DNA of 64,000 bases from Lacrimispora sphenoides JCM 1415 (GTDB taxonomy: Bacteria > Bacillota > Clostridia > Lachnospirales > Lachnospiraceae), in assembly GCF_900105615.1 (NCBI RefSeq), contig NZ_LT630003.1:5236136-5300135 (forward strand), given 5' to 3'. The notes below the pieces were generated by a model. That model saw nothing but the letters and a program-made list of their open reading frames with translations, made no database searches and was not told the origin of the DNA. The translations under genes were made by a program, and so were the position numbers. Positions 47,053 through 62,608 of this stretch are shown piece by piece (within the stretch, counting starts at the first letter, position 1; each line of letters starts with the position of its first letter).

Positions 47053-47535
47053 TTATTCATCAAAAAAGGCATCATCGTGCTTCTTCATTTCTTCTGTCAC
47101 CTCAATGTCGGTCCGTTCATGGGCTGCAACCGGTTCCAGGTAGGTTCTGCTGTCAGTATTAAAAATATTAACCGGGCTTTGGCTTTTTACGTATTCGGGG
47201 ATATGAACCATTTCTCTGACACGTTTTAGGGCTTCTTTCTGCCCTTTCTCATTTAAACGGTGAAAATTCTCAATCATTTCTCCGGCATATTCCCCGAAAC
47301 GTCCGCTGATATAGTCAAAAGCGGAAGCAGTATCGCTTTCCCAACCCATGAGATAGGCTGGGGTTGTCCTCAAAGCATTGGCAATTGCTATGATCTTTGA
47401 CTGGGGAAGCCCTCTTCCGTCTACCTCGATTTTATTAATGGAAGAACGGGATTTATAGCCGGCCTTTAACGCCAATTCTTCCTGCGAGATCCCAAGCTCT
47501 TCCCGTCTCCTTTTAATAATCTGTCCTATTTCCAC
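47053..47535 (-). CDS. XRE/CI-type repressor of the tail element
   Basis: A 160-residue protein with an N-terminal HTH (MEIGQIIKRRREELGISQEE, ALKAGYKSRSSINKIE) and RTTPAYLMGW, then an acidic C-terminal region (EVTEEMKKHDDAFFDE) without LexA-type peptidase. It would hold the divergent tail operon silent. The 19-base palindrome-like sites at 47638 and 47830 are candidate operators. It is followed by the ImmA-like protease gene. Confidence 0.9.
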   Translation of the reverse strand: MEIGQIIKRRREELGISQEELALKAGYKSRSSINKIEVDGRGLPQSKIIAIANALRTTPAYLMGWESDTASAFDYISGRFGEYAGEMIENFHRLNEKGQKEALKRVREMVHIPEYVKSQSPVNIFNTDSRTYLEPVAAHERTDIEVTEEMKKHDDAFFDE

Positions 47536-47934: not shown

Positions 47935-47995
47935 GGAAAGGCAGGTGCCGGAAGGAAAGGCTGGAGGCATAGGAAAGGGGGGATTATATGTATAA
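47873..47995 (+). CDS. Small basic peptide, uncertain
   Basis: A 40-residue frame MKVKEQGKVRSPTKKERIRF followed by RERQVPEGKAGGIGKGGLYV, with AAGGAGAATCCT upstream; its end overlaps the next start (ATG at 47988). Highly basic and without family. It could be a leader for the tail operon. Confidence 0.4.
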   Translation: MKVKEQGKVRSPTKKERIRFRERQVPEGKAGGIGKGGLYV

Positions 47996-48401
47996 CGAAA
48001 TCATGGATGGAGTTATCAAACGGTTGGAAGAGTTTTTTCCGGAAGCCAGGATCGATACAAGCCCTTTTGGGGAAGGGATTTCTGAACCTTATTTTGAAGT
48101 CGGACTTTTAGAGACGTTTGAAAAGCCAGTGAACGGGCAGCGTTATTTCCGCAGCATAAGCATGTATGTAACGTATAACTGCCAGAATTCAGTACAGCCC
48201 TCAAGGGACAGGAATCTTGTTCTGGATGTTCTTATGGATAAACTGGAATACATTACTCTGGAAAACGGCTCTTTGATAAGAGGCAGCAGCAGAAAGGGTA
48301 AAAGCGAAGGGGAGGCCCTAAACTTCCTGGTGGATTATCAGGTCTACATTTTAAAAAACGGGGAGTCGGAAGAATTCATGGAAGATATTAAATTAAAATG
48401 A
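47988..48401 (+). CDS. Phage tail terminator-like protein (DUF6838 type)
   Basis: A 137-residue protein. The N-terminal MYNEIMDGVIKRLEEFFPEA, then IDTSPFGEGISEPYFEVGLLE, SISMYVTYNCQNS and VLDVLMDKLEYITLENG match the tail terminator/completion proteins of clostridial PBSX-like clusters. It would cap the tube and sheath at the head-proximal end, needed even in headless particles. It is the first gene of the structural operon. Confidence 0.75.
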   Translation: MYNEIMDGVIKRLEEFFPEARIDTSPFGEGISEPYFEVGLLETFEKPVNGQRYFRSISMYVTYNCQNSVQPSRDRNLVLDVLMDKLEYITLENGSLIRGSSRKGKSEGEALNFLVDYQVYILKNGESEEFMEDIKLK

Positions 48402-48414
48402 AAGAGGTGTTATC

Positions 48415-48612
48415 GTGGCAAAAAAGAACGTAAAAGAAACGGACGGGACCAGCGTAATACGTTATACAAAGGATCAGCTGATCAGTTCAGAAAAGTATCG
48501 TAATCAGAGGGACTTAATAAGTGCTTTGTTTGATGATAGGAAAGTATATTCTGTAACAGAAGCAGAAGAAATCATAAATCAATTTATGAAAGGAAAGGTG
48601 AAAGTATGTTAG
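48415..48612 (+). CDS. Small tail-cluster protein of unknown function
   Basis: A 65-residue protein with a GTG start (AAAGAGGTG upstream): MAKKNVKETDGTSVIRYTKD, then SEKYRNQRDLISALFDDRKVYSVTEAEEIINQFMKGKVKVC. Similar short proteins precede the sheath gene in PBSX-like clusters (XkdJ-like position). It overlaps the sheath start by seven bases. Confidence 0.7.
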   Translation: MAKKNVKETDGTSVIRYTKDQLISSEKYRNQRDLISALFDDRKVYSVTEAEEIINQFMKGKVKVC

Positions 48613-49904
48613 GTGGAGGAAATTTTACAATTCAAAACAAAGTATTTCCTGGTGCATATATCAATTTTGTAAGTACTGCTTCGGCAGGCGCATCCATGGG
48701 AAACAGGGGGGTGGCAGCAATCCCTATGGTTCTTGAATGGGGACCGGAGAAAGAGATATTTGAGGTTACATCAGAGGATTTCCAGAAAAGGTGTAAAGAA
48801 ATTTTTGGCTATGCAATGGACGATGCGGCTATGCTTCCGGTCAGAGAGCTTTTCCGAAATATGACGAAGGGAATTTTTTACCGCTTGAATACAGGGACAC
48901 ATGGGGCAAACGAATATGGCACGGCAAAATACTCTGGTAACAGAGGAAATAATCTGATGACCATTATTGCGAAAAATGTTGATAATAATTCAAAATTTGA
49001 TGTGAAGACCCTGTTTGCAGGAAGAGAAGTTGATCGCCAGACAGTTGCAGAGGCAAAAGAGCTGATGGATAACAGTTACGTCATATTTAAAAAGGATGCC
49101 GAACTGGCAGAAACGGCAGGACTTCCCTTTACAGGAGGTGCCAATGGTGCTGATGTGACAGGAGAGGATTATGCAGAATTCCTGGATAAGATGGAGAGTG
49201 CTTCCTTCCAGATTCTTTGCTGTCCTTCTGCTGACGGTAAGGTAAAAGCTTTGTTTACAGCATTTACAAAACGTATGAGGGATGAAGCTGGTGTGAAGTT
49301 CCAGACTGTATTACACCAGTATTCCAAGGCTGATTACGAGGGTGTCATCTCCGTTGAGAATGAAGCGAAAGAATCAGCTACAGGCCTTGTTTATTGGGTT
49401 GCTGGCGCAGAAGCCGCATGCCCTGTCAACAAGACCATTGAAAATAAAGTTTATGACGGGGAGTATACCGTTAAGGCTTCCCATACCCAGGCTCAGCTTG
49501 CTGATGCAATAAGGGCAGGTAAACTTATGCTTCACAGTGTAGGAAGTGAAATCAGGATTCTGACTGACAGTAATACTTTGGTTACTTATACAGAGGAAAA
49601 AGGGGAAGATTTCTCTAACAACCAGACAGTCCGCGTTCTGGACCAGATTGGAAATGACGTTGCTTCTCTTTTCCATACACGTTACCTGGGTAAGATTTCA
49701 AATGACGATGCAGGACGGGTAAGTCTTTGGAATGACATTGTTACATATGGAAAACAGCTGGCGGTATTAAGGGCGATTGAAGCTGTAAATTCGGAAGAGG
49801 TTACTGTGGAAAAGGGACTGGGCAAGCGGTCCGTTGTGGTGAATTTCCCGGTGAAACCGATTAATTCCATGAGCATCTTATACATGACAGTAATTGTATC
49901 ATAA
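48606..49904 (+). CDS. Contractile tail sheath protein (XkdK-like)
   Basis: A 432-residue sheath protein. N-terminal GGNFTIQNKVFPGAYINFVS, then SMGNRGVAAIPMVLEWGPE, REVDRQTV, LVYWVAGAEAACPVNKT and a C-terminal domain (VNFPVKPINSMSILYMTVIV) that is the handshake strand region. Length is typical for PBSX/diffocin sheaths. Contraction of this polymer drives the tube into the target cell. A sheath identifies the particle as R-type (contractile). Confidence 0.95.
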   Translation: MLGGGNFTIQNKVFPGAYINFVSTASAGASMGNRGVAAIPMVLEWGPEKEIFEVTSEDFQKRCKEIFGYAMDDAAMLPVRELFRNMTKGIFYRLNTGTHGANEYGTAKYSGNRGNNLMTIIAKNVDNNSKFDVKTLFAGREVDRQTVAEAKELMDNSYVIFKKDAELAETAGLPFTGGANGADVTGEDYAEFLDKMESASFQILCCPSADGKVKALFTAFTKRMRDEAGVKFQTVLHQYSKADYEGVISVENEAKESATGLVYWVAGAEAACPVNKTIENKVYDGEYTVKASHTQAQLADAIRAGKLMLHSVGSEIRILTDSNTLVTYTEEKGEDFSNNQTVRVLDQIGNDVASLFHTRYLGKISNDDAGRVSLWNDIVTYGKQLAVLRAIEAVNSEEVTVEKGLGKRSVVVNFPVKPINSMSILYMTVIVS

Positions 49905-49920
49905 GAAAGGGGTAATGAAC

Positions 49921-50394
49921 ATGAATAATATTACAATGGACGCATGGGACGCTATCAGCGCCACAAAAGCAGAGTGCTATATCACAATCGGAAACGAACG
50001 TTATAATTTTATGCAGGCTTTAAACCTGGAGGCTAAGATTGAAAAGGTAAAATCAGAGATCCCGATTCTGGGACGAGCCATGAAGGGGAATAAGACCGTG
50101 GGAATGAAAGGAAGCGGATCAGCTACTTTCCATTACAATACAAGCATTTTCCGGGATATTTTATACAAGTTCCAGCAGACCGGAAATGATATCTATTTTG
50201 ATATCCAGGTGACCAATGAGGACCCTGCTTCCAGGGTAGGCCGTCAGACTGTGATTTTAAAGGATTGCAACTTAAATGGAGGAATTATCACCAAATTTGA
50301 TGCAACAGGAGAATACTTAGAAGATGAGTTTGAATTCACATTTGAAAGCTGGGAGATGCCTGAAAGATTCAGCAATCTTGCGGGAATGCAGTAA
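49921..50394 (+). CDS. Tail tube protein (XkdM-like)
   Basis: A 157-residue tube protein: NITMDAWDAISATKAECYIT, NFMQALNLEAKIEKVKSEIPILGR, GNKTVGMKGSGSATFHYNTS and FEFTFESWEMPERF. The ATG at 49921 is preferred over 49894 because GAAAGGGG lies about nine bases before it. It follows the sheath, the normal order. Confidence 0.93.
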   Translation: MNNITMDAWDAISATKAECYITIGNERYNFMQALNLEAKIEKVKSEIPILGRAMKGNKTVGMKGSGSATFHYNTSIFRDILYKFQQTGNDIYFDIQVTNEDPASRVGRQTVILKDCNLNGGIITKFDATGEYLEDEFEFTFESWEMPERFSNLAGMQ

Positions 50395-50416
50395 AAGAAG
50401 AAAGGAATAAAAGGAT

Positions 50417-50845
50417 ATGGGAGATTTAAGTTGTTTTTTAAGCCAGAATGCAGTTAAGGCGGAGCATGAAAAGTTCGTTGCTTCCAAACGTTTTTTAGGT
50501 CCGGGAAAAAAACCTGTGGAATGGGAGATTAAAGCCATTACCTCTAAAGAAGATGAATCCCTAAGAAAAGAGAGCACGAAAAGGGTTCAGGTAACAGGAA
50601 AAAAGGGACAGTATACCCAGGAGACGGATTATAACCTTTATCTTGGGAAGCTGGCAGCTGAATGTACGGTTTACCCTAACCTAAATGATAAGGAATTACA
50701 GGATTCCTATCATGTTATGGGGGCAGACGGACTTTTAAAGGCCATGCTGACTGCAGGCGAATACGCAGGTTATCTGGAACGAATTCAGCAAGTGAATGGT
50801 TTTGATATTACACTGGAAGAGCAGGTTGAAGAGGCAAAAAACTGA
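50417..50845 (+). CDS. Tail assembly chaperone, first part (XkdN-like)
   Basis: A 142-residue XkdN-like protein: MGDLSCFLSQNAVKAEHEKFV, SKRFLGPGKKPVEWEIKAIT, YLGKLAAECTVYPNLNDKEL and ADGLLKAMLTAGEYAGYLERIQQVNGFD. It protects or measures the tape measure protein before tube assembly. Its last sense codons are AAA AAC inside a slippery A AAA AAC heptamer, and the next reading frame is entered directly by a -1 shift (see the following entries). Confidence 0.92.
   Translation: MGDLSCFLSQNAVKAEHEKFVASKRFLGPGKKPVEWEIKAITSKEDESLRKESTKRVQVTGKKGQYTQETDYNLYLGKLAAECTVYPNLNDKELQDSYHVMGADGLLKAMLTAGEYAGYLERIQQVNGFDITLEEQVEEAKN
50836..50842 (+). promoter_or_regulatory. Predicted -1 ribosomal frameshift site (A AAA AAC)
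   Basis: The canonical X XXY YYZ heptamer sits in the right phase immediately before the TGA stop. A -1 slip continues as CTG ATA GAA GGG GGT GAT ATG into the next frame. GAAGAGG about nine bases upstream could act as a stimulating Shine-Dalgarno-like element. Confidence 0.8.
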
Positions 50846-51027
50846 TAGAAGGGGGTGATATGGAAGCAAATATTGCTTACTATTGCCTCCACAAGCTCCA
50901 CAAATGGCCTCATGAGTTTCTAAGCCTGGACAGGTATGAACGGGCGTTTGTTATGGCAGCGGTACAGCTTAAGCTGGAAAATGACAAGAAAGAGGCACAA
51001 AAGACGAAGAGTGCCAGAAAAAGATAG
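50842..51027 (+). CDS. Tail assembly chaperone, second part (frameshift extension)
   Basis: An extension frame entered by -1 slippage at 50836-50842; it also has its own ATG at 50860 (55 residues: MEANIAYYCLHKLHKWPHEF, LSLDRYERAFVMAAVQLKLE, basic tail). Many tailed phages make two chaperone forms (lambda gpG and gpGT) this way just before the tape measure gene, exactly this place. GGGGGTGAT upstream of the ATG could also allow independent starts. Confidence 0.75.
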   Translation: MIEGGDMEANIAYYCLHKLHKWPHEFLSLDRYERAFVMAAVQLKLENDKKEAQKTKSARKR

Positions 51028-51086
51028 AAGAATGGAAGAGCATCTTTTAGGGTGTTCTTCCAAAAAAAAGAAAGGAGGGAAAGCGT

Positions 51087-53549
51087 TTGGCAACAATACA
51101 AAATTCAATACAGCTTCAGGATGGAGCCTCCTCCGTATTAATGAAGATCAATCAGTCAATCAATATTACAAGCCAGTCTTTTCGAAAATTCCAGATGGCG
51201 ACAGGTGGTTTTATAGGCTTGCCAGGGATGTCGGCATCCATAACAGATATTCAGAGTATGGGAATTCAATTTGAACAGGTCACTGAAGTAATCGTACAGG
51301 CCAAGGAAAAGCAGGAAGAGTTAAATAAAACCATTGATGATGGTAAGAGCAAACTCCAGGATATGAAGAAACTCTGGGATAAAGCATTATCTGGTTTAGG
51401 TAAGATGGGAATCAACACCAGTCCTATGGATATATTTAACCAGGCAAATGATATAAAAGCAGCCGGAAATCTCATACAGTCTAGGACCGGAATGCAGGGG
51501 CAGGATCTGGATATGGCAAAGCAAAGTGCTAAAAATCTATATGTGGATAACATAAGCGGCAGTCCTGAAGATGCAGCAAAGAGTTTATCTTCGGTACATC
51601 AGATGACTGGTCAGACAGGTGATAGCCTGGAGCAGCTTACAAGAGCAGGATTGCTCCTTAAAGACACCTTTGGTTACGGCCTGGCAGACAGTATCCGCAC
51701 TGCAGGAGTGCTGCAGGAGCGGTTTGGGGCTACCGGTGCCCAGTCATTAGACTTAATCGTACAGGCAACCCAGGCTGGACTTGATAAAAATGGAAAACTG
51801 CTTGATTCGATCAATGAATACTCTTCTCAGTTTAAAAACTTGGGCTTTGAAGGGGCAGAAATGTTTAACATGCTGATTAATGGAGCGCAGAATGGAGAGG
51901 TTTCAGTCAGTACTTTAGGTGAGGCTGTAAAGGAATTTTCATTAAGGGCTGTTGGCGGAGGAAAGGACGCTCAGGAAGGTTTTTCAGCTTTGGGGCTTAA
52001 TGCTGGCAGGATGACCGAGGCATTCGGAAGTGGTGGTGAAACGGCAAAGCAGGCATTCCAGCAGACCATCGCCGCTTTAAGCAGTATGGAAGATCCCGTC
52101 AGTAGGAATATAGCAGGAATGAAACTGTTTGGCAGTGCCTGGAGAGAGCTTGGCAGTGAAGGAATCATGGCATTGTCTAACTTGGATGGGTCCGTAGAAC
52201 TGTCAACGGAACACCTTGAAGAATTAAATAACATAAAATACAACGATGCAGCCAGCGCACTGAGCTCTTTGGCAAAGACGGTAAATATGGGACTTGCCGG
52301 TCCCATAGGCAGTACAGTTGACAATATAACCAAAGCGATCAACAGCTTCACAAACGGGCTTAAAGGAAATGTTGGTGAAATCAGCGGGATTTTTGGTGCC
52401 ATTGGATTTGTAGCAGGAGTTGTGGGGAGAGCTTTTGCAGAAATATGGCCTGTGATTGAGCCTGTTCTATGGGGAATTATTGCGGCTTTGATTGTTTACA
52501 ATGCGACCATGAAGGAAGGGTGGATTGAGATAATAAAGAATGCGGCTGCTTTGGTGTGGGAGACAACTTGCAATTGGGCTGCAGCAGCAGCTGCTTTTGC
52601 ATCAAAATTAGCTCACGAAGGGTTAAATGCAGCATTAGCTACCTGCCCTATTAATTTTATAATTATGGCAATTATCATATTAATAGCGCTTTTTTATGCA
52701 GGTGTAGCTGCTGTTAATAAATTTGCCGGAACCTCTTACAGTGCAACCGGGATAATATGCGGTGCTTTCGCGGTAGCCGCTGCATTTATAGCCAATATAC
52801 TAATGGGGATCCTGGAAATTGGTTTAGGAGTCATTGAATATTATTATAATGGCTGGGTAGCTTTTGCAAACTTTTTCGGAAATCTGTTTCATGATCCGGT
52901 AGCTTCGGTGATACACTTATTTGCAGATTTAGGCGATAGAGTTCTTGGTGTTATACAAAAAATAGCACAGGGCCTGGATTTTATATTTGGTACACATATG
53001 GCAGATACTGTGAAAGGCTGGCGGGATAATTTATCGAATCTTGCCGATGAGCTTGCTGATAAATATGGAAATGGAACATATGAAGTCAAAGCTGAAAAAC
53101 TGGATATAGATCAAGTGTTAGCTGGTCTCAACTGGTCTCCGGAGCGATTGAATTATAGTGATAACTATCATAAGTGGTATGAGTCTGGAAAAGGTATTGA
53201 AGATAACGCAAAGGGAGGCTTTGATAAGATAAAAGGTTTCTTCGGAGGACGGTCCTCACAATCAGACTTGCCCGGAACAACTGACAGTATTGCCCAGAGT
53301 ACCGGAGATACTGCCATGAATACAGCAGCCATGGCAGACTCAATGGATATCATGGATGAGGAATTAAAATATATGCGAGATGCTGCAGAACAGGAAATCA
53401 TCAACCGGTTCACTCTTGCGGAACTGAAGTTAGATGTAAATAACAACAATACCATAAAGAATGTGGCTGATATTGATGAAATGTACCGCAGACTCGGGGA
53501 TGCTACCAGCGAAATTCTTGCTTCAGCTGCGGAAGGAGTGAATATATAA
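51087..53549 (+). CDS. Tape measure protein (XkdO-like)
   Basis: An 820-residue protein with TTG start after AAAGGAGGG. N-terminal helical region with coiled-coil potential (EVIVQAKEKQEELNKTIDDG), TMP core with GYGLADSIRTAGVLQERFGATG and LGLNAGRMTEAFGSGG, a cluster of hydrophobic segments (about 430-580: IFGAIGFVAGVVGRAFA, GIIAALIVYN, FIIMAIIILIALFYAGVAAV, GIICGAFAVAAAFIANILMG) and a soluble C-terminal part. It sets tube length: about 820 residues implies a tail of roughly 120 nm by the usual 1.5 angstrom per residue rule. Confidence 0.93.
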   Translation: MATIQNSIQLQDGASSVLMKINQSINITSQSFRKFQMATGGFIGLPGMSASITDIQSMGIQFEQVTEVIVQAKEKQEELNKTIDDGKSKLQDMKKLWDKALSGLGKMGINTSPMDIFNQANDIKAAGNLIQSRTGMQGQDLDMAKQSAKNLYVDNISGSPEDAAKSLSSVHQMTGQTGDSLEQLTRAGLLLKDTFGYGLADSIRTAGVLQERFGATGAQSLDLIVQATQAGLDKNGKLLDSINEYSSQFKNLGFEGAEMFNMLINGAQNGEVSVSTLGEAVKEFSLRAVGGGKDAQEGFSALGLNAGRMTEAFGSGGETAKQAFQQTIAALSSMEDPVSRNIAGMKLFGSAWRELGSEGIMALSNLDGSVELSTEHLEELNNIKYNDAASALSSLAKTVNMGLAGPIGSTVDNITKAINSFTNGLKGNVGEISGIFGAIGFVAGVVGRAFAEIWPVIEPVLWGIIAALIVYNATMKEGWIEIIKNAAALVWETTCNWAAAAAAFASKLAHEGLNAALATCPINFIIMAIIILIALFYAGVAAVNKFAGTSYSATGIICGAFAVAAAFIANILMGILEIGLGVIEYYYNGWVAFANFFGNLFHDPVASVIHLFADLGDRVLGVIQKIAQGLDFIFGTHMADTVKGWRDNLSNLADELADKYGNGTYEVKAEKLDIDQVLAGLNWSPERLNYSDNYHKWYESGKGIEDNAKGGFDKIKGFFGGRSSQSDLPGTTDSIAQSTGDTAMNTAAMADSMDIMDEELKYMRDAAEQEIINRFTLAELKLDVNNNNTIKNVADIDEMYRRLGDATSEILASAAEGVNI

Positions 53550-54217
53550 TGGCATATGAAGTTTACATTGACGATATGCTTCTTCCGCTGCCACCGGAAA
53601 AAATACCCGTAAAGTATAACGGACAGAATAAGACGGTGAACCTGATTAACGGCGAAGAAATTAATCTGGTCAAACCATTTGGTCTTGCGGAAATAAGCAT
53701 TGATGTGATTATTCCCCAGATGGATTATCCCAGTGCAATTTGGGATGGAAGCATTAACGGGTCAGAGGATTTTCTGGAAAAGCTCCAGGAGTTAAGGGAG
53801 GGCCAAAACCCCTTTGAATTTACCGTTATCCGGCAAGGGATGGGGGGGAACAGTCTTTTTGATACCAGTATGGATGTAATTCTGGAAGATTATAAGGTTA
53901 CAGATGATGTAAGTGAAGGACTCGACCTTATCGTTTCCCTCACAATGAAGGAATATAAAAATTATGGAACTAAAATTATGAATTTTACTATTGTTGAAGA
54001 GAAGCAGGAAATAGAGTCTGTGCAGCAGGAAGAGGAACGTCATGGAGAGCCGGCGCAGGTAAAGAATTACACAGTCGCAAAGGGAGACTGTCTATGGTCC
54101 ATAGCAAAAAAACAGCTTGGCAATGGGAACCGGTGGCAGGAAATCCATAATCTAAACCGGGACAAGATAACAAATCCAAATGTTATTTATCCAGGGCAGG
54201 TTCTCACCATGCCATAG
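53549..54217 (+). CDS. LysM baseplate protein (XkdP-like)
   Basis: A 222-residue protein. The N-terminal domain (VYIDDMLLPLPPEKIPVKYN, PQMDYPSAIWDGS, FEFTVIRQGMGGNSLFDTSM) is XkdP-like; the C-terminal LysM (about 175-222: YTVAKGDCLWSIAKKQLGNG, NPNVIYPGQVLTMP) binds peptidoglycan. It starts inside the TMP stop region (one-base overlap) and sits at the tail tip hub. Confidence 0.93.
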   Translation: MAYEVYIDDMLLPLPPEKIPVKYNGQNKTVNLINGEEINLVKPFGLAEISIDVIIPQMDYPSAIWDGSINGSEDFLEKLQELREGQNPFEFTVIRQGMGGNSLFDTSMDVILEDYKVTDDVSEGLDLIVSLTMKEYKNYGTKIMNFTIVEEKQEIESVQQEEERHGEPAQVKNYTVAKGDCLWSIAKKQLGNGNRWQEIHNLNRDKITNPNVIYPGQVLTMP

Positions 54218-54227
54218 GAGGTAGGAA

Positions 54228-55184
54228 ATGGAAGCACATTTATATATCCAGAACGGTCAGACCGTATATGAGCCGGTGGTGAAAGGGGCTATTACCTGGG
54301 AAACACAGCGAAGAGGGCAGCCTGGAAAGTGCTCTTTCACCCTAATCCCAGACAGGTGCCTCCAGATTGAGGAGGGCAATGCCCTCCGTCTGGATGTGGA
54401 TAAAAAACCTGTTTTCTTCGGATTTATTTTTGAGCGTAACTGGAGCAGCAACGGAGAGGTGAAGGTTACCGCTTATGATCAGCTTAGGTATCTGAAAAAT
54501 AAAGATACCTATAATTACACGGATTTAACTGCCGGAGAAGTGATCCAGATGATAGCCAATGATTATCACTTGGAAACGGGAGAATTACAGGATACGGGTG
54601 ATAGAATATCCAGAAAAGAAAAGGATAAAACGTTGTTTGATATTATCTTAAACAACTTGGATCTTGCAATGATACATACGAAAAATCTGTTTACCTTTTA
54701 TGACGATGCAGGAAAGCTCACCCTAAAAAATATGGAGAACATGAAGCTTGACATTATGATTGATGACAAGACAGCTCAGGATTATGACTATAAGGTAAGC
54801 ATTGACAGTAATACTTACAATCAGATCAAGCTGTATTGCGATAATAATGATACAAAACAAAGAGAAATCTATATGACTAAACACACCGAAAATATCAACA
54901 AGTGGGGGATTCTGCAGAAAGACGAGTCCATCGATCAAGGGGTAGACGGCCAGGCGATTGCAGAAACATATTTGACTTTATACAACCGCCCCTCCCGGAT
55001 CCTGTCCATCAAAGACGCCTTTGGAGATATCCGGGTACGTGCAGGTTGTCTGATTCCGGTATTTCTGGATATAAAGGATATGGGAGTAAAAAACTATCTG
55101 GTGATCGAGTCTGCAGCCCATAAGATTGATGAGGGGGTGCATACCATGGATTTAACATTGAGAGGGGCGAAAATCAGTGGCTGA
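54228..55184 (+). CDS. Baseplate hub protein (XkdQ / gpD-like)
   Basis: A 318-residue hub protein: LYIQNGQTVYEPVVKGAITW, RGQPGKCSFTL, ALRLDVDKKPVFFGFIFERN, KVTAYDQLRYLKNKDTY and RIRAGCLIPV-like VRAGCLIPVFLD. It connects tube to spike in contractile tails. AGGAGGT precedes the ATG. Confidence 0.92.
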   Translation: MEAHLYIQNGQTVYEPVVKGAITWETQRRGQPGKCSFTLIPDRCLQIEEGNALRLDVDKKPVFFGFIFERNWSSNGEVKVTAYDQLRYLKNKDTYNYTDLTAGEVIQMIANDYHLETGELQDTGDRISRKEKDKTLFDIILNNLDLAMIHTKNLFTFYDDAGKLTLKNMENMKLDIMIDDKTAQDYDYKVSIDSNTYNQIKLYCDNNDTKQREIYMTKHTENINKWGILQKDESIDQGVDGQAIAETYLTLYNRPSRILSIKDAFGDIRVRAGCLIPVFLDIKDMGVKNYLVIESAAHKIDEGVHTMDLTLRGAKISG

Positions 55185-55491
55185 TGTAGAGTGGATTGAA
55201 AATATTAAACGGATTGTAATTCAGGCTATTGAAGCTGGAGATCCATGTGATGTAATTCCAGGAACTGTAATAAAGGAAAATCCAATGGAAATACAAATTG
55301 ACCAAAAAACAATCCTGTCCAATTTACAGGTTATTTTGCCGAAGCAATTCACTGATCATGCGGAGGTGATGAATATTCCGGGAATGGGAGAGGTGTCTGT
55401 AACCATAAAAAATGGATTAAAAGCAGGTCAAAGGATTCTTCTGCTTCAGAAGAGAGGCGGACAACAGTATGTAGTGATAGGTATGTGGTAA
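55177..55491 (+). CDS. DUF2577 tail protein (XkdR-like)
   Basis: A 104-residue protein with a GTG start overlapping the hub gene by eight bases. IKRIVIQAIEAGDPCDVIPGTV and GLKAGQRILLLQKRGGQQYVVIGMW identify DUF2577, an OB-like baseplate/spike component of PBSX-type tails. Confidence 0.9.
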   Translation: MADVEWIENIKRIVIQAIEAGDPCDVIPGTVIKENPMEIQIDQKTILSNLQVILPKQFTDHAEVMNIPGMGEVSVTIKNGLKAGQRILLLQKRGGQQYVVIGMW

Positions 55492-55520
55492 TAGGTTCAT
55501 GAAAGAAAGGAGGTGTTGCC

Positions 55521-55922
55521 ATGATTCCGGTGGCAGGTAATATTTTAGAGCAGGATTTTAAGGTTGTTCATATGCCGTCAAAGACTTTTCGACTGGATAT
55601 GGAAAAGAAGCGTGTGATTGGAATGGCAGATGGTCTGGAGGCGGTAAGGCAAGCGGTTTTCTGTATTCTTAATACAGAGCGGTTTGATTGGCTGATATAC
55701 AGTTGGAATTACGGCATGGAGCTTAAAGGTTTATTCGGAAAGTCGGCAGGGCTGGTAAAAGCAAAGATCAAAAAGAGAATTAAAGAAGCATTACAGCAGG
55801 ATGACAGGATTCAAAGCGTTGACACGTTTTCCTTTGAAAGCAATGGGAGGATACTCCATGTAAAGTTTACAGTTCATACCATTTTGGGTGAATTTGAGGT
55901 AGAGAAGGAGGTGGATATATAA
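55521..55922 (+). CDS. DUF2634 baseplate wedge protein (XkdS-like)
   Basis: A 133-residue gp25-like wedge protein: PSKTFRLDMEKKRVIGMADG, EAVRQAVFCILNTERFDWLIYSWNYG, and HVKFTVHTILGEFEVEKEV. AAAGGAGGTG precedes the ATG. It stops one base into the next start. Confidence 0.92.
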   Translation: MIPVAGNILEQDFKVVHMPSKTFRLDMEKKRVIGMADGLEAVRQAVFCILNTERFDWLIYSWNYGMELKGLFGKSAGLVKAKIKKRIKEALQQDDRIQSVDTFSFESNGRILHVKFTVHTILGEFEVEKEVDI

Positions 55923-57001
55923 TGTATGAAAATATGACGTATGAAGTTATTTTGAAACGAATGTTGGATCGGGTTCCCAAGGGATTGGATAAAAGGGAGG
56001 GATCTCTGATTTATACGGCGCTAACTGCAGCGGCGGCAGAAATGCAGATCATGTACATAGAATTTGATACAATTTTAAACGAAACCTTTGCAGATACTGC
56101 ATCCAGAGAAAATTTAATTCGTAGAGCAGGAGAGCGGGGATTGCAGCCAAAAGAAGCAACCAGAGCTGTTTTAAAAGCGGTAGCGACCCCTGATACAGCC
56201 GCGATTTCAATTGGTGACCGTTTCCGTCTGGGGCTTAACTATTATGTGATTTCGGGCAGCATGGGCGGAGGAATCTATCAGATTACATGCGAAGCTGCCG
56301 GAACTAATGGGAATCACCAGTTTGGCCGATTGATTCCGTTATTGAATATTCCGGGACTGACAGCTATGGAAATGACAGAACTGCTAATTCCTGGAGAAGA
56401 CGATGAGGAGACGGAGGTGTTCCGAAAAGTTTATTTTGATTCTTTTCATGAGAAACCTTTTAGCGGAAACCGAAAGGACTACAAGGATAAAACCAATGGC
56501 ATTCCGGGAGTTGGAGCAACGAAAATAACCAGGGCATGGAATGGTGGTTCTACTGTTAAATTAACAATACTGGATTCTAACTTTAACAAGGCTTCCGATC
56601 TTTTAGTACAAACTGTTCAGGAAACAATTGATCCTGAGCAAAGTGGAGGCGGAGATGGTCTTGCACCGATTGATCATATTGTAACCGTGGATACTGCCAA
56701 GGAAGTGAAGATACAGATTAACAGTACTCTGGAATTTGATAACAACTATCCTTATAAGGTTTTACTGGAACAGATAGAGAGTGCGGTTGATGCTTATTTG
56801 GGAGAACTAAGAGCTTCATGGGAAGGTCTTGGAGATCATGGGTGTATTGTAAGAATCTCACAACTGGAATCAAGAATTTTGGGAATCCAGGGTATTTATG
56901 ATATCAGCAGCACACGTATAAATGGAGCAGCAGAGAATCTGGAATTAAATAAGTACCAGATTCCAATATATGGGGGGATTGAAATTGATTCGAGAAGTTG
57001 A
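55922..57001 (+). CDS. Baseplate J-like protein (XkdT-like)
   Basis: A 359-residue wedge protein: MTYEVILKRMLDRVPKGLDK, RREGSLIYTAL-like KREGSLIYTALTAAAAEMQI, ETFADTASRENLIRRAGERG, IPGVGATKITRAWNGGSTVKL and PIDHIVTVDTAKEVKIQI. Length is typical for baseplate J. The next gene starts inside its 3' end. Confidence 0.95.
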   Translation: MYENMTYEVILKRMLDRVPKGLDKREGSLIYTALTAAAAEMQIMYIEFDTILNETFADTASRENLIRRAGERGLQPKEATRAVLKAVATPDTAAISIGDRFRLGLNYYVISGSMGGGIYQITCEAAGTNGNHQFGRLIPLLNIPGLTAMEMTELLIPGEDDEETEVFRKVYFDSFHEKPFSGNRKDYKDKTNGIPGVGATKITRAWNGGSTVKLTILDSNFNKASDLLVQTVQETIDPEQSGGGDGLAPIDHIVTVDTAKEVKIQINSTLEFDNNYPYKVLLEQIESAVDAYLGELRASWEGLGDHGCIVRISQLESRILGIQGIYDISSTRINGAAENLELNKYQIPIYGGIEIDSRS

Positions 57002-57539
57002 TTTACTGTCCTATATTCCTGACTTTATTAAGGAATATGAAGAAATGAGAGCCGTACAGGAGCTGATCCAACCGGAGATACAGAGGTTGGAGGATGAAAC
57101 AGAGGTTGTGTTTAACAATCAGTTCATTTCAAGCTCCGACAGTAAAAGTATTAAACGTTACGAAAAAATGCTGCTTATCCAGTCTTTGCCTGATGATACG
57201 CTGACTGACAGACGCTTTATGGTGTTATCAAAATGGAATCGAATGATTCCATATACAAAGGTAACGTTAAGGCAAAAACTCTCTATATTATGCGGGGAGG
57301 ATGGTTTTACGTTGAAAATTGATCCGAAAAAGGTTATTACTGTTAGGGTGGCATTAAAGAGTAAACGGAATTTTTATGAAGTGAAGGAAATGCTGGAGGA
57401 ATTTGTACCTTGCAATATGGTCATAGACTTGGACCTGCTTTATAATCAACACAGTTTGCTCTGTGAATTTACTCATAAACAATTAGCAGCCTGGAGTCAC
57501 AGGCAGATAAGAAATGAGGTGCTTATCAATGGGAAATGA
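56985..57539 (+). CDS. DUF2313 tail protein (YmfQ/XkdU-like)
   Basis: A 184-residue gpI-like baseplate protein linking baseplate and fibre: IREVDLLSYIPDFIKEYEEM, DETEVVFNNQFISSSDSKSI, RYEKMLLIQSLPDDTLTDRRFMVLSKWN and IPYTKVTLRQKLSILCGEDG. The TTG at 56985 follows GGGGGGA and overlaps the previous gene; an ATG at 56970 is possible. Confidence 0.9.
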   Translation: MIREVDLLSYIPDFIKEYEEMRAVQELIQPEIQRLEDETEVVFNNQFISSSDSKSIKRYEKMLLIQSLPDDTLTDRRFMVLSKWNRMIPYTKVTLRQKLSILCGEDGFTLKIDPKKVITVRVALKSKRNFYEVKEMLEEFVPCNMVIDLDLLYNQHSLLCEFTHKQLAAWSHRQIRNEVLINGK

Positions 57540-58437
57540 AACAAAAAATTATAAGTTTCCGAAGCCTAGTGAAGATGATTTTTATGATATTTCAGAATAC
57601 AATAAGGCTATGGATATATTAGATGAAACGCTGACGGGAATGAGTGATCGGAAGCTTGATCGTAATGGAAATGCTTCCAATGTAGTTACTGAGTTCAGCC
57701 AGGAAATTTTACGTAATAACATTGTATCAGGAGAAAAATTATCAGTCTCCCATGGAAAAATACAAAAGTGGTTTTCGGAGATGAAAAATATAGCATTTTC
57801 CGGACTGGCATCGGATGCCACTCAGGATGCGGCTCACCGTTTTGTGACGGATACAGAGAAAAGCAATTGGAATGCTAAGGTTTCGGCTTCCGGGGGCGAT
57901 ATTTCTGGGACAAAGATAGGTTCGCTTGAAACTATAACATCTGAATTTCCGGTTCCTTCTGAAGGGGAGACATCAAAGATGTTTCTGGGGAAGGTGAAAA
58001 AGTTTATTCAAGATTTTAATAATTTTAAAACGGGGATAATTACTGTTGGGAAGTTGGTCAATAACGGGCAGACTACGGCAGCAGGGTATGCTTTGGATGC
58101 AAGGTATGGGAAGACGTTGTATGATATGTATACTCAATTAAATGCTGATATGAGTTATTATCGTCGTATCAGGTATGGCGTAAAATTTATTGTTGATTCT
58201 GGCGGTAGAGACTGGATAAGAATACCGCTTGCCGACCTAGGGTTTCCAAACGATACATTAACGGATTACCCCTGCGTGGTAGCACTTCCGCAAATTAACA
58301 TCAATGATACCGTAAATACTAATAGAGATGTCCAAATATTATGCTCAAAACCGAATACAGACCGCAGATCTATAGAGCTATTACTTAACAGGGCATTTTC
58401 AGGCGGAGTACTATTCTCTGTCTGGTATATTGCTTAA
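57529..58437 (+). CDS. Tail fibre, constant stem plus expressed variable tip (A)
   Basis: A 302-residue fibre. Residues 1-204 are the constant part: NYKFPKPSEDDFYDISEYNKAMDIL attachment region, AHRFVTDTEKSNWNAKVSAS and QTTAAGYALDARYGKTLYDMYTQ. At codons 205-207 (AAT GCT GAT, 58141-58149) it crosses the shared site found at the start of three silent tips, after which the 98-residue tip A (MSYYRRIRYGVKFIVDSGGR...SGGVLFSVWYIA) follows. The ATG at 57529 fits the GAGGTG site; an earlier ATG at 57514 has none. The tip should decide the target cell. Confidence 0.9.
   Translation: MGNETKNYKFPKPSEDDFYDISEYNKAMDILDETLTGMSDRKLDRNGNASNVVTEFSQEILRNNIVSGEKLSVSHGKIQKWFSEMKNIAFSGLASDATQDAAHRFVTDTEKSNWNAKVSASGGDISGTKIGSLETITSEFPVPSEGETSKMFLGKVKKFIQDFNNFKTGIITVGKLVNNGQTTAAGYALDARYGKTLYDMYTQLNADMSYYRRIRYGVKFIVDSGGRDWIRIPLADLGFPNDTLTDYPCVVALPQININDTVNTNRDVQILCSKPNTDRRSIELLLNRAFSGGVLFSVWYIA
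58136..58152 (+). repeat. Fibre-switch site 1 (inside expressed fibre)
   Basis: AATTAAATGCTGATATG, 13 of 17 matches to sites 2 and 4 (AATAATATGCTGATTTA) and sharing the ATGCTGAT core. CTCAAT/CTCAAT just upstream is also shared with site 2. Direct orientation. Confidence 0.75.
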
Positions 58438-58441
58438 ATGA

Positions 58442-58819
58442 TCATTTTCCAATACGAATTCCCACAATATTTTGTATAGTAGCAGTATTATAACTATACT
58501 CATGGGTCCCATTCTGGTATATTCTGGTTTTGCTTATAACGTTGGTATAAAATGTGGTTGCCACAACCGCATTGGAAAAAACTATCTCGAAGCGATAAAG
58601 GTCAGTGTAATTTGGTTGTACGTTTACAGCAAATCCTATTAACGCATTTTGTGTTTCACTGAACCAGTTTTTCAGGCAGATCGTCGGATTCCAGTCGATT
58701 AAGACTTGAAACAAATGATACCCGTAAAAGGACTTAGTTGTTTCATATGTCCGGTTATATTGTGCCGTACCACTAAAAAGATTCTCCCTTACAATCCCCG
58801 TATTATTTAAATCAGCATA
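58442..58819 (-). other. Silent fibre tip B, inverted
   Basis: An open frame of 125 residues without start codon, opened by a TAA and the site: YADLNNTGIVRENLFSGTAQ, then NRTYETTKSFYGYHLFQVLID and on to NIVGIRIGK stop. It is tail to tail with tip A (four bases apart). Inversion between sites 1 and 2 would join it in frame to the fibre stem in place of tip A. In the other frame upstream of the site KGMADLVYHQLNN resembles the fibre stem end YDMYTQLN. Confidence 0.85.
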
Positions 58820-58824
58820 TTATT
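58808..58824 (-). repeat. Fibre-switch site 2 (tip B)
   Basis: AATAATATGCTGATTTA on the minus strand, identical over 17 bases to site 4. In-frame TAA just before the coding part keeps the tip silent. Confidence 0.8.
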
Positions 58825-58888
58825 GAGCTGGTGGTAGACCAAATCGGCCATTCCTTTTAAAATAGACATCAAAGGAGGGCTTATACAA

Positions 58889-59908
58889 ATGATAGAACAG
58901 ATACTGGAGAAAGTGATCAATGCCATGATGCCACACCTAGATGGCGGGCAGATGGAGCAGCTGCACAATGCATTGTATATCAATTTTCATGGCGTTGAGG
59001 TTAAGGAAGAATGTTACGAGGTGACAGAAACGGGCATTGATGGTGACGCCATGAAAGTGAAAATGTTTGTGGCCAGCAAGAAAGCAGTTAACCGGCAGGA
59101 TAATACCTTAAAGCAGTATACAACGGAAATCTGTAAGATGCTGGATTTTTTAGGAAAGAGGATTGAGGACATTACAGCCATGGATTTGCGTTATTATTAC
59201 GGGGTCATGAGGGAGCAACACGGCATCAAAATGACCACCATGCAGACAAGGCTGCATTATTTATCTAGCTTCTGGGATTTCCTTACCACAGAAGAGCTTG
59301 TGACCAGTAACCCGGTTAAGCGTGTCGGAATCCTGAAGCTAGCCAAGACCATTAAAAAACCGTTTTCCCAGGAAGAAATGGAAGCACTTAGGATTAATTG
59401 TACGGAACTGAGGGATCGTGCAATTATGGAGTTTTTATACAGTACAGGTGTCAGGGTATCAGAGTTGGCGTCACTGAATGTTTGTGATATTGAAATGGGG
59501 AGGCAGGAGTTGATTGTATTTGGTAAGGGAAGTAAGGAAAGAAAGGTTTATCTGACGGATAATGCCAAGTTTTACTTGAAGCGTTACCTTAAAGAGCGTA
59601 TGAAGGAGGAGGAAATAACCGAAGAAGAATTGGAAAATAAGCCTTTATTTACTACATTGGATCAGCCACACGCTCGCCTGACAGTTGCCGGAGTTCAGTA
59701 TATGCTTCGGGAGCTTGGACGACGTGCGGGTGTGAAGAAGGTTCATCCGCATCGGTTCCGTAGAACTATAGCAACAGATTTGTTAAATAAAGGGATGCCG
59801 GTGGAGCAAGTGTCAAAGCTTCTGGGGCATGAAAAACTAGATACTACAATGATTTACTGTACGGTTCAGGAAGAAAATGTCAAGGAATCACACCGAAAGT
59901 TTGCATAA
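58889..59908 (+). CDS. Tyrosine recombinase of the fibre-switch locus
   Basis: A 339-residue XerC/D-like recombinase. N-terminal SAM-like domain (about 65-150: NTLKQYTTEICKMLDFLGKR, TRLHYLSSFWDFLTTEELV) and catalytic domain with Arg in YSTGVRVSELASLNV, Lys in GKGSKERKV, HxxR in HPHRFRRTIATDLL, His in LGHEKLDTT and Tyr in TTMIYCTVQE. AAAGGAGGG precedes the ATG. It lies between silent tips B and C, inside the tail operon, where prophage integrases do not sit. By analogy with Rci of R64 shufflons it should invert or shuffle the fibre tips. Confidence 0.9.
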   Translation: MIEQILEKVINAMMPHLDGGQMEQLHNALYINFHGVEVKEECYEVTETGIDGDAMKVKMFVASKKAVNRQDNTLKQYTTEICKMLDFLGKRIEDITAMDLRYYYGVMREQHGIKMTTMQTRLHYLSSFWDFLTTEELVTSNPVKRVGILKLAKTIKKPFSQEEMEALRINCTELRDRAIMEFLYSTGVRVSELASLNVCDIEMGRQELIVFGKGSKERKVYLTDNAKFYLKRYLKERMKEEEITEEELENKPLFTTLDQPHARLTVAGVQYMLRELGRRAGVKKVHPHRFRRTIATDLLNKGMPVEQVSKLLGHEKLDTTMIYCTVQEENVKESHRKFA

Positions 59909-60019
59909 ATAGCTGATATGGATTGATTTTAAGTGGTCGGAAACGGGTGCTTTATTAAGTTTACCATTTTTTAGCACAAAAGTTGGGAATGCGCAATATG
60001 GAGTCGTGAGAGGTGACTA

Positions 60020-60036
60020 AGTAAAATGCTGATTTA
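60020..60036 (+). repeat. Fibre-switch site 3 (tip C)
   Basis: AGTAAAATGCTGATTTA, 15 of 17 matches to sites 2 and 4, in direct orientation like site 1. TAA at 60022-60024 closes the frame before it. Confidence 0.8.
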
Positions 60037-60537
60037 TCATACAAAGTTATATCTTCCGGAGATATACTTACATTGGATCGCGGTTTTTATTATGCCTATC
60101 CTAGTTGCAATAATTTACCGCCAGATACAGGCGAGGCATTCTGGCTATCAGTTAACAAAGTTGACAATAATAATAAAATCATCGATGCTGTTCCGGCTGG
60201 AGCGGGTTATAAGTATTATTACAAGGCAAAGAAAAGCGAAGGTGTATGGCAGGGCTGGAATAAATATCCAGAAAGTACTAAATTACTCGGATACCTCGAA
60301 AGACAATATGTGTTTGAGGCTAGCGCTGCCAATACAGAACAACTAATTGCTTGGTGGGCTGGAGAACCGGAACTTAAAGGAAAAACTTTAGTAAACGTAT
60401 ACGCTTCGATTGTTGAAGGTTGGACTAATACTATCTTTACATACTCTCCGCCCTATTTACATGGCGAAAACATTGGAATGCGCTTTAGTGTAGCCCAGAA
60501 ATATACCATTGTATTAAAATATCAGTACCTCCAATAA
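60025..60537 (+). other. Silent fibre tip C, direct orientation
   Basis: A 170-residue open frame without start: NADLSYKVISSGDILTLDRG, FYYAYPSCNNLPPDTGEAFW, KYYYKAKKSEGVWQGWNKYP and ending in VLKYQYLQ. A TTG at 60073 could in principle start translation but has no ribosome binding site. It begins with the same Asn-Ala-Asp phase as the expressed fibre and is tail to tail with tip D. The stretch 59909-60019 has no gene. Confidence 0.85.
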
Positions 60538-60541
60538 TCAT

Positions 60542-60976
60542 TTAAACTGCAATGGTAGAAATCCGTTTCCACTGAGACGGAACACCGTCCCACGCCAAGT
60601 ATCTACAATAAACATTACTAGATGCAAAAATTACCTGAAATCCGTGAGTTGCGCCTGAAACTAATATTGTACAATCTGGTAGAGAAGAAATCCCTGGTGG
60701 TCCATTTAATATTGGAACGGCACCTCTAAATCGATGAAATCCTGTCTGGGTTGTTGAATTTAAGTCAACTGTACCATTAGTCGGATCATACATATAGGTA
60801 ACGGCTATATCGCTCAAATAATATTTATTTGCATTAGACATGAAATACAGGATTCCATCTCCGTCTGACCCTATTCCAGTGTCATTTCCGATTTCAGAAA
60901 ACATGAAGCCGCCCCCATTACCTGCTGAGGCTATAAAAGTATTTTTCTGCAAAGTGGAACTACCTAAATCAGCATA
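60542..60976 (-). other. Silent fibre tip D, inverted
   Basis: A 144-residue open frame without start: YADLGSSTLQKNTFIASAGN, GGGFMFSEIGNDTGIGSDGD, TGFHRFRGAVPILNGPPGIS and ending VYCRYLAWDGVPSQWKRISTIAV. WDGxxxxWKRI is a common end of phage fibre/knob domains. It starts at site 4 after a TAA and converges on tip C with a four-base gap, mirroring the A/B pair. Confidence 0.85.
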
Positions 60977-60981
60977 TTATT
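60965..60981 (-). repeat. Fibre-switch site 4 (tip D)
   Basis: AATAATATGCTGATTTA on the minus strand, identical to site 2. The 60982-61154 stretch beyond it has no gene. Confidence 0.8.
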
Positions 60982-61154
60982 AAGTGATCTCTAGAATTCC
61001 TAAAATTAAACATCTCTTTATACAAGGAAACAATCAAATTTAATTAATAAAGATGATCTCGAATACAATTCAATATAAAAAACATCTAGTTTTAAAAATA
61101 GTACAACGATAAAATTCAATAACAAAATAATTATTAAAAATGAGGTGAGAAAAA

Positions 61155-61574
61155 ATGAAGCACACACTATGTGTCTTGATCGGAATCATTGGCAATATCA
61201 TCACAACCCTTTTTGGTGGCTGGGACACTGCGATCGGTACCCTGATCTTATTCATGACCATCGATTTTTCCTCCGGCCTAGCTGTAGCCGGAATATTCCA
61301 CAACAGCCAGAAGACAAAAACAGGTACTCTTGAATCAAAAGCAGGCTGGAAAGGCCTATGCAGAAAATGCATGACCATACTATTTGTATTAATCGCCCAC
61401 CGACTAGACTTATCCCTAGGAACCTCCTACATACGAGATACGGTCATCATCGGTTTTATGGCAAACGAGCTCATATCTATAGTAGAAAATGCAGGCCTTA
61501 TGGGCCTTCCTCTTCCAGCGGCTATTGTTAAAGCCATAGATATTTTAAACAAAAAATCACAAACATCACAATAA
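61155..61574 (+). CDS. Phage holin (TcdE/Cph1 family)
   Basis: A 139-residue holin with about four membrane segments: CVLIGIIGNIITTLFGGWDTAI, LILFMTIDFSSGLAVAGIFH, CMTILFVLIAHRLD and DTVIIGFMANELISIVENAGLMGLP, and IDILNKKS at the end, all typical of the toxin-secretion/phage-lysis holin family. It lets the amidase and particles out. GAGGTGAG precedes the ATG. Confidence 0.93.
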   Translation: MKHTLCVLIGIIGNIITTLFGGWDTAIGTLILFMTIDFSSGLAVAGIFHNSQKTKTGTLESKAGWKGLCRKCMTILFVLIAHRLDLSLGTSYIRDTVIIGFMANELISIVENAGLMGLPLPAAIVKAIDILNKKSQTSQ

Positions 61575-61665
61575 ATATGAAAAGCCATCAAAAGCCCATC
61601 TTTAATCCCGGTACATTCCCTCCCAATAAATCATATAATAATAACAGAAAGGACAAGGTGATTTA

Positions 61666-61822: not shown

Positions 61823-62608
61823 ATGGAAGTTCAAAAACTATTGACACCATACAACTATAGCAACGGTCAGATTGACCGGATAAAATATATTGTAATACAC
61901 TATGTAGGAGCTCTCGGAGGAGCAGAAGCAAACTGTAAATATTACGCCTCCCAATACATTGGAGCCAGTGCTCATTATTTTGTCGGTTTCAGCGGAGAAA
62001 TATGGCAATCCGTTGAGGACAAAGATATTGCATGGCATTGCGGCGCAAAAACATATACCCATCTGGAATGCCGCAACAGCAACAGCCTGGGAATAGAGTT
62101 TTGTGTCAGGAACAATGGAAGTCAGACAGATACAAGCAGAGACTGGTATTTTGAAGATGCAACAGTAGAGGCTGCCGCCCAATTAACAAAAGAACTAATG
62201 AAACAGTACAATGTCCCGGCGGATCATGTAATCCGCCATTATGATGTAACGGGAAAAATCTGTCCCAACCCTTATGTATACAATCACACTCAACATACCT
62301 GGGATAGCTTTAAAGCAGCACTTGCAGAAGAGCAGCATAAATCCGGTTGGATTGAAGAAGAGGGTGGATGGAGATTCTACTTAGGGAATACCGGAAATTA
62401 TGTTACGAACGATTGGTATAAGGACGGAGAAAACTGGTACTGGTTCGACGGTGCCGGATTTATGGTAAAAGATACATGGAAAACCGGGTCAGATGGCAAA
62501 TGGTATTATTTAAATAACAACGGTTCAATGGCAAGAGCCAGTGGATCAACTGGAAAGAAGAGCTGTACCGGGTTACGGAAGACGGAAGCCTGTTTGAAGG
62601 AAAAATGA
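61823..62608 (+). CDS. N-acetylmuramoyl-L-alanine amidase endolysin, frameshifted C-terminus
   Basis: A 261-residue Amidase_2 endolysin that cuts the peptidoglycan amide bond. Zn ligands: His in IKYIVIHYVGALGG, His in VIRHYDVTGKICPNP with its Cys/Asp region; GASAHYFVGFSGEIWQ and NSLGIEFCVRNN are typical. Then cell-wall-binding repeats (GWRFYLGNTGNYVTNDWYKD, WYWFDGAGFMVKDTWKTGSDG). Near 62536 one base seems lost: the next frame continues SQWINWKEELYRVTEDGSLF, then EGKMNLSTDEKGALHIV, to a stop at 62649, whereas the present frame ends in an unrelated basic tail. The catalytic domain is intact. Confidence 0.9.
   Translation: MEVQKLLTPYNYSNGQIDRIKYIVIHYVGALGGAEANCKYYASQYIGASAHYFVGFSGEIWQSVEDKDIAWHCGAKTYTHLECRNSNSLGIEFCVRNNGSQTDTSRDWYFEDATVEAAAQLTKELMKQYNVPADHVIRHYDVTGKICPNPYVYNHTQHTWDSFKAALAEEQHKSGWIEEEGGWRFYLGNTGNYVTNDWYKDGENWYWFDGAGFMVKDTWKTGSDGKWYYLNNNGSMARASGSTGKKSCTGLRKTEACLKEK

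Follow-up and report, generated by a model that had tools for sequence, protein, structure and literature searches.

A four-site inversion cassette that very probably swaps the tail-fibre tip of a predicted tailocin in Lacrimispora sphenoides

Can a single tail-fibre gene be supplied with several alternative tips, and by what means? The question is raised by a locus near the end of the genome of Lacrimispora sphenoides JCM 1415, in a 64,000-nucleotide stretch (here called the window; NZ_LT630003.1, positions 5,236,136 to 5,300,135) that makes up the terminal 64 kb of one 5,300,135-base contig. In the 3' part of a contractile tail module, a fibre gene is followed there by three start-less frames and a tyrosine recombinase gene. 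The locus is very probably a four-site shufflon, predicted from its sequence to swap the C-terminal, probably receptor-binding, tip of the fibre of an R-type tailocin.

Sites and tips of the cassette

The fibre open reading frame (ORF) is made up of a constant stem and an expressed tip, A; the silent tips B, C and D lie downstream (Table 1). Every tip starts at the same core, ATGCTGAT, in one common phase (N/Y-A-D), and an in-frame TAA stands just ahead of the core at all three silent sites of the window. Tips A/B and C/D are convergent pairs separated by four-base gaps (58438-58441 and 60538-60541), and the recombinase gene lies between the pairs, in the middle of the block and inside the tail operon. 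This layout, which the initial annotation had proposed, was confirmed throughout.

The site itself had been taken for its 8-bp core, and really measures about 18-20 bp. It is asymmetric and comprises, over 18 bp, an arm (RCTNANTNAN) followed by the core, the full pattern being RCTNANTNANATGCTGAT. The bare 8-mer was rejected as evidence, since its 8 matches in 64 kb (3.17 expected) were reached in 2 of 100 shuffles. The full pattern gave exactly four matches in the window and none in 100 shuffles. Eight matches were found in the 5.3-Mb contig, each of the four sites being present in both of the overlapping ends, and a reversed-pattern control gave none. As the pattern was built from the four sites themselves, these counts test its exclusivity alone. 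The exact 18-bp site is absent from the rest of the genome, and chance repeats were set aside on this ground. Repeated k-mers proved a noisy site finder in several loci; the arm was recognized by reading the flanks.

A second state of the locus is contained in the deposited chromosome. The contig is untrimmed, and its positions 1-18901 repeat the last 19.2 kb (5280919-5300135). Outside the locus the two copies differ by gaps only, 21 of them upstream of it and 2 downstream, without a mismatch. In this overlap copy (L010) the A/B block is inverted in the first slot and tip B stands behind the stem, the only differences from the A/B block of the window being 2 one-base gaps in 677 bp; the second slot holds another A/B block instead of C/D. 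The four junctions of L010 (s1-B, s2-A, s3-A and s4-B) all fall at the core ATGCTGAT. The untrimmed end overlap keeps in this way two states of the switch in one deposited sequence.

The remaining tips were found in separate proteins. P0004 carries the stem (204/204 residues) joined to tip D (143/144), and its sole tip difference, N for Y at the first tip residue, is the one that the s1 flank predicts; to judge from this near-identity, P0004 presumably comes from the same or a sister isolate. P0003 joins a stem matching at 202/204 residues to tip C (170/170), and P0007 a stem matching at 194/204 to tip B (120/125, with N for Y at the first residue and four further differences). With A in the window, B in L010, C in P0003 and D in P0004, all four tips are therefore seen in expressed position, attached to this stem or to a stem with 95% identity or more. 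The A-B and A-D exchanges anticipated by the initial annotation, and the recruitment of C that it had expected, were thus all recovered, the stem in front of D being identical to that of the window. A static relic was set aside, because alternative tips are joined to the stem in P0004, P0003 and P0007.

Sites, core junctions, four tips behind the stem, the inversion of A/B and A/B in the second slot are all directly seen, and at the level of sequence the switch is real. The locus has a constant part, alternative C-termini, inverted sites in one reading phase and rearranged forms with junctions at the sites, as a shufflon does. P0011, from Lacrimispora celerecrescens, stops at YTQ, within the arm of the site. 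The fibre P0001 has a tip-C-like domain, then a second junction-like ENSDL and then tip A, which suggests that tips may be stacked.

The tips are probably receptor-binding C-terminal domains, by analogy with other systems; weak PHROG matches were obtained for tip C and for no other tip. The recombinase matches XerD and XerA in the PDB by sequence profile. In NCBIfam it scores 215.8 bits for XerA_Arch (cut-off 220), 194.4 for XerC (335) and 182.5 for XerD (330), and reaches none of these curated cut-offs. It has a SAM-like core domain (27.1 bits, cut-off 27) and a catalytic domain, and in the Pfam scan no arm-binding family rose above its cut-off. By recombinase, the nearest named relative is L. 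celerecrescens (L040, 94%).

The tail module that houses the cassette spans 47988-62608, with fibre, recombinase, holin and amidase in its 3' part. Its operon encodes a terminator, sheath, tube, XkdN-like chaperone, tape measure, LysM, YqbQ, DUF2577, sheath initiator, baseplate J and Gp48. No head-, portal- or terminase-like gene was found between the chromosomal genes and the tail terminator among ORFs of at least 95 amino acids, of which the HTH and M78 genes were profile-scanned. A contractile tail with lysis genes and without head or packaging genes gives the module the make-up of an R-type tailocin, known from its genes alone, and the particle is a predicted one; the Pfam tail and lysis families support the headless contractile tailocin proposed at the outset.

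Table 1. Coordinates of the switching cassette and of the surrounding tailocin genes in the window
Feature	Position	Strand	Remarks
Site s1, inside fibre gene	58132..58149	+	arm + core pattern
Site s2	58811..58828	-	arm + core pattern
Site s3	60016..60033	+	arm + core pattern
Site s4	60968..60985	-	arm + core pattern
Central palindrome AAATGATCATTT	58436..58447	.	contains stops of tips A and B
Fibre ORF	57529-58437	+	stem + tip A
Constant fibre stem, 204 codons	57529..58140	+	related stems bear other tips
Tip A, expressed position in window	58141..58437	+	
Silent tip B, start-less frame	58442..58819	-	joined to stem in L010 and P0007
Silent tip C, start-less frame	60025..60537	+	joined to stem in P0003
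Silent tip D, start-less frame	60542..60976	-	joined to stem in P0004
XerA/XerD-like tyrosine recombinase, between tip pairs	58889..59908	+	Pfam Phage_integrase 1.1e-37
M78/IrrE-like gene beside HTH gene	46575-47075		Pfam Peptidase_M78 1.5e-8
HTH repressor-like gene, 5' edge of tailocin module	47053..47535	-	Pfam HTH_3 7.2e-14
Contractile tail operon	47988..57539	+	Pfam matches, ORF list
Sheath gene within tail operon	48606-49904		Pfam
Holin	61155..61574	+	Pfam Phage_holin_4_1 3e-35
Amidase endolysin	61823..62608	+	Pfam Amidase_2 9.3e-30

Related loci and the conservation of arm and palindrome

The recombinase was found (E ≤ 1e-80) in 4 of 25 genomes of the genus and in 7 of 397 of the family, its own genome being included in both counts. 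The layout s1+ s2- recombinase s3+ s4- is present in 15 related loci (L012, L029-L036, L045-L047, L122, L124 and L126), with weaker arms in L046, L124 and L126; four more loci (L123, L125, L127 and L128) are partial. The initial annotation had counted a lack of inverted junctions, together with unconserved sites, against a switch; instead, junctions lie at the core, and layout and a similar arm recur in these 15 loci. In L122 the recombinase is directed against the tail operon, and in L045 stem-like sequence lies beside s4, so that here the recombinase gene, too, seems to have been inverted.

In related loci, sites were sought as matches to either core, ATGCTGAT or ATAGTGA, no further than 4-5 kb from the recombinase, and four per locus were picked by orientation and position, extra core matches being dropped in L030, L032, L033, L035, L045, L046, L047 and L124, among others. 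Conservation of the core, which is mostly ATAGTGAT in the related loci, is therefore built in. Over the 64 sites of 16 loci, window included, which comprise close relatives and paralogues and are not all independent, the arm is kept, with C at -9 in 61 sites, T at -8 in 61 and A at -2 in 60. Strong conservation on the tip side is confined to position +9 (T in 61/64). The conserved arm sits on the fixed side, whether stem, recombinase flank or downstream flank. A stop codon precedes the core at 44 of 59 silent sites, a rough count that takes in L010, the partial loci and loci in which s1 is not on the stem side.

A second conserved element lies in the middle of the blocks. TGATCA was found near the block middle in 14 of the 16 blocks of the window, L012 and L029-L034, and the full AAATGATCATTT in 10 of those 14, some blocks being copies of each other; it is lacking in the C/D block of the window and in all 16 blocks of eight more distant loci. 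The viral contigs L127 and L128 are 99% identical in both flanks (1804/1815 and 1986/2003), and their slot-1 blocks differ, R|Q versus P|S. L125, with more distant flanks, has P|Q in slot 1 (P 355/360, Q 319/328). Among these three, the outer breakpoints of the blocks are the site cores and the inner ones lie in the palindrome region, indicating that tips are also re-paired there.

Further rearrangement is apparent within one complete chromosome. Hungatella hathewayi DSM 13479 has two paralogous loci that carry one slot-2 block (538/543 columns) in opposite orientations and whose recombinase regions differ by 31 bases in 1245. One H. hathewayi locus is part of a complete prophage, whose genes include those for terminase, portal, a Mu F-like protein, capsid and sheath, this being the one relative checked for head genes. 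The silent tip C of the window is 58% identical over 91 residues to the expressed-position tip of L036. The same block occupies both slots in L010, L029 (611/613 columns) and L047 (675/675). L047 carries a second recombinase copy; at about 6550-11609, at its contig end, block and recombinase form a head-to-tail repeat with a unit of 2592 bp, which may have been left by circle formation or by a loop in the assembly graph.

The fibre stem is more widespread in the genus (11 of 25 genomes at E ≤ 1e-20, own included) than the recombinase, and the other three genus genomes with the recombinase (G006, G009 and G020) gave no stem match. All six sister Lacrimispora tailocins examined, out of ten other genomes with the stem, have a single fibre, and in none of the six stretches does a recombinase of this family lie beside it. 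The cassette thus represents a lineage-specific gain or loss. The distance from fibre to holin is 0.5 kb in L227 and 1.1 kb in L225, where reverse-strand frames between the two genes may be remnants.

The genome of L. sphenoides JCM 1415 holds a second cassette (C1:3281614-3283346; L012 with L013), with an intact recombinase (94%) and four sites with the core ATAGTGAT, three of which match the arm pattern exactly and one with a mismatch. Its tips end after 5-12 residues, and the adjoining large gene is RHS-like by eye; the enzyme may have been kept despite dead tips.

Inversion and its alternatives

A site would work as an arm of about 10 bp on the fixed side and an 8-bp core in which the strands would be exchanged; because so little sequence is conserved on the tip side, any tip could serve as cargo. 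The recombinase between the blocks would invert the DNA between oppositely oriented sites. Inversion at s1/s2 would swap A and B, and at s3/s4 C and D; s1/s4 inversion would flip the whole cassette and swap the blocks, and s2/s3 inversion would flip the recombinase gene. From the geometry of four sites, inversions alone would let the blocks stand in either order, and each block as well as the recombinase in either orientation, which makes 16 arrangements, four for each expressed tip. The local recombinase is the likely catalyst, to judge from its position, its intact frame and its recurrence with the sites, and deletion between direct sites appears to be disfavoured. Tip exchange would presumably alter which cells are killed.

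Several points weigh against this reading. The case is built on assembled sequence, the enzyme is tied to the sites by position and co-occurrence alone, and the same-strain origin of P0003 and P0004 is inferred from near-identity. The choice of sites by core builds in core conservation and may somewhat favour that of the arm. For a receptor-binding role of the tips there are analogy and the weak matches of tip C. In L010, the A/B block in the second slot replaces C/D, which pure inversion cannot yield; it shows 30 one-base differences from the window block (29 bases missing and one extra), suggesting that it is based on few reads or is a chimeric consensus. Tip B of L010 agrees with the window for 103 of its 125 residues, until a one-base gap shifts the frame, a break taken as an assembly error. 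The duplicated blocks of L010, L029 and L047 are likewise not explained by inversion alone; crossing over between sister chromosomes within the recombinase gene, excision and reintegration, or faulty assembly would each give them.

These duplicated blocks, with the second recombinase copy of L047, speak for the proposal that blocks travel chiefly as circles that are excised and reintegrated, as described for the pneumococcal tvr locus (PMC6265443). Such a route is improbable as the main one, given that a block flanked by inverted sites cannot be excised by itself, and that the A-B and s1-D exchanges are simple inversions. Duplication can also result from assembly, or from a crossover between sister chromosomes that hold different arrangements, within the recombinase gene common to both.

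Homologous recombination or horizontal exchange between strains, with the recombinase an incidental neighbour, might be read from the many different tips on related stems, from the six sister loci that lack a recombinase of this family and from the re-pairing of tips at the central palindrome. Nevertheless, stem and tip DNA have only the short core in common at the junction, which is too little for RecA, and A and B trade places, in opposite orientation, within one genome. As a replacement for inversion this explanation is quite unlikely; between-strain exchange is probably also at work, over longer periods.

There is very little to recommend the view that the locus is static and the arrangements are misjoins at contig ends. 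L010 does lie near a contig end, with the 30 one-base differences of its second-slot A/B block and the broken frame of tip B, but misjoins would not stop four times at an 8-bp core with the correct flanks, the separate proteins P0003 and P0004 have tips C and D attached to the stem, and in H. hathewayi two loci of one complete chromosome carry a block in opposite orientations. Equally hard to credit, and set aside since the layout recurs at related tail loci, is a simple mobile insertion, in which the recombinase would be the integrase of a small element landed behind the fibre: sisters have a single fibre and then the holin, as if the cassette were gained or lost as a unit, but the four sites are in phase with coding tips rather than being attachment sites at the ends only, and the layout is found again next to other tails and, in similar form, at two hsdS loci.

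If the cassette is the inversion switch proposed here, a clone that produces tails of several specificities simultaneously could be hedging its bets against resistant competitors. Since the switch and its four tips occupy no more than 3.5 kb, the idea can be tested in a single strain.

The recombinase family and known switching systems

Relatives of the recombinase also occur amid type I restriction specificity genes (hsdS). Plasmid relatives were found in 16 records, the best of which include xerA genes with 35-39% identity over nearly all 339 residues. Both records inspected, 2 of the 16, have xerA amid hsdS genes, at 36-39% identity to the window enzyme, in the orders hsdM, S+ S-, xerA, S+ S-, hsdR (L231, recombinase at 5001-5954) and hsdM, S+ S-, xerA, S+, hsdR (L230, recombinase at 5001-5981). 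Full-length homology and a central position are thus shared with an hsdS-shufflon recombinase.

Out of 152 rows, window included, 35 were labelled tail or fibre (TAIL) and 21 hsdM/hsdS (HSD), 96 being unlabelled; TAIL labels derive partly from a single fibre-stem match and HSD labels partly from a methyltransferase match alone. Both cargo classes share one recombinase tree. In a smaller tree of the 55 labelled rows and one outgroup (the 96 unlabelled rows, L232 and two outgroups removed), the labels can be explained by one change of cargo, and the hsdS group, whose support of 90/85 is not starred, is placed among the tail groups. In the larger tree, with unlabelled rows as an extra state, the HSD label needs 7 changes, at least 5 of them forced by starred branches, and HSD rows fall in several places, which weighs against a single cargo change. 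Archaeal relatives of the recombinase were seen in Methanobrevibacter (L081, L106, L108, L115 and L116), in loci with genes matching hsdM seeds.

Inverted matches across the recombinase, at a score of at least 12, were found in 41 of 135 loci, against 3/135 in the direct control and 14/300 in the other-locus control. By class they occurred in 14/31 TAIL, 1/19 HSD and 26/85 unlabelled loci, and in 16 of the 24 loci with recombinase identity of at least 57%; the statistic misses loci with inner sites further out and is no proof for distant kin.

We put forward only tentatively, at a little under an even chance, that the XerA-like family forms a cargo-independent switching module serving both hsdS and tail or tailocin targeting, with a central invertible recombinase and two convergent pairs of recognition domains, whose tail version would shuffle by inversion at one-armed sites and by tip re-pairing at a palindrome of the type TAAATGATCATTTA. 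The common enzyme family and the similar hsdS layout suggest a single shuffling module, common to bacteria and phages, that serves two kinds of recognition.

Among known systems, the R64 shufflon resembles the window in its multi-site, one-armed design. Its tyrosine recombinase, Rci, acts at several inverted sites, each with a short core and a single conserved arm, and swaps the C-terminus of an adhesin, PilV, at the pilus tip. The two differ in cargo, in site sequence and in the place of the recombinase, which in R64 lies outside the shuffled region.

A second precedent, the carotovoricin fibre locus, is inverted by Ein, a serine invertase, whereas the window enzyme is of the tyrosine type (Phage_integrase family). 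Carotovoricin shares with the window the swapping of a tailocin fibre C-terminus by DNA inversion, changing killing specificity (PMC13195805, PMC13280938, PMC10598620). Ein occurs in 172 of 365 clusters (PMC13195805), and carotovoricin differs in its Gram-negative host and in its sites and architecture.

Inverting type I hsdS loci (PMC7394358), and PsrA, a tyrosine recombinase that inverts type I hsdS (PMC7096588), resemble the window in that a tyrosine recombinase shares a cassette with partial specificity genes in inverted orientation. Their cargo is DNA-recognition domains instead of fibre tips, and PsrA was likened to the window enzyme by description only.

In the open-licence literature, no report was found of a tyrosine-recombinase shufflon in a tailocin, or, among the matches listed, in Lachnospiraceae tails; the combination of tailocin and tyrosine recombinase gave one match there, which concerns XerC and pyocin production.

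The closest parallel is provided by the Rin shufflons of Bifidobacterium and Eggerthella prophages, in which a tyrosine recombinase switches receptor-binding C-termini at 11-bp or 8-bp sites (PMC6109161, PMC8778435). Like the window, they combine a tyrosine recombinase without arm-binding domain, short asymmetric sites at variable C-termini and a constant N-terminus, and several arrangements have been seen in sequence; the window recombinase, too, lies beside a putative receptor-binding gene. Rin is located at one end of tandem variable genes in actinobacterial prophages, whereas the window recombinase is central between convergent pairs, in a predicted headless contractile tail of a Clostridia species. 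The site of the window has one conserved arm, unlike that of Rin, the enzymes being compared by description and not by sequence. One-armed sites, with direct copies flanking the recombinase, bear on the question of why DNA is inverted and not deleted, raised for Rin (PMC6109161). The new combination claimed by the initial annotation is therefore only partly so, because carotovoricin, Rin and a similar hsdS layout exist, so that tailocin inversion, a tyrosine phage shufflon and the layout have precedents. Each part of the system has a precedent, and it is the combination, together with the one-armed site, the central recombinase and the boundary at which tips are re-paired, that looks new.

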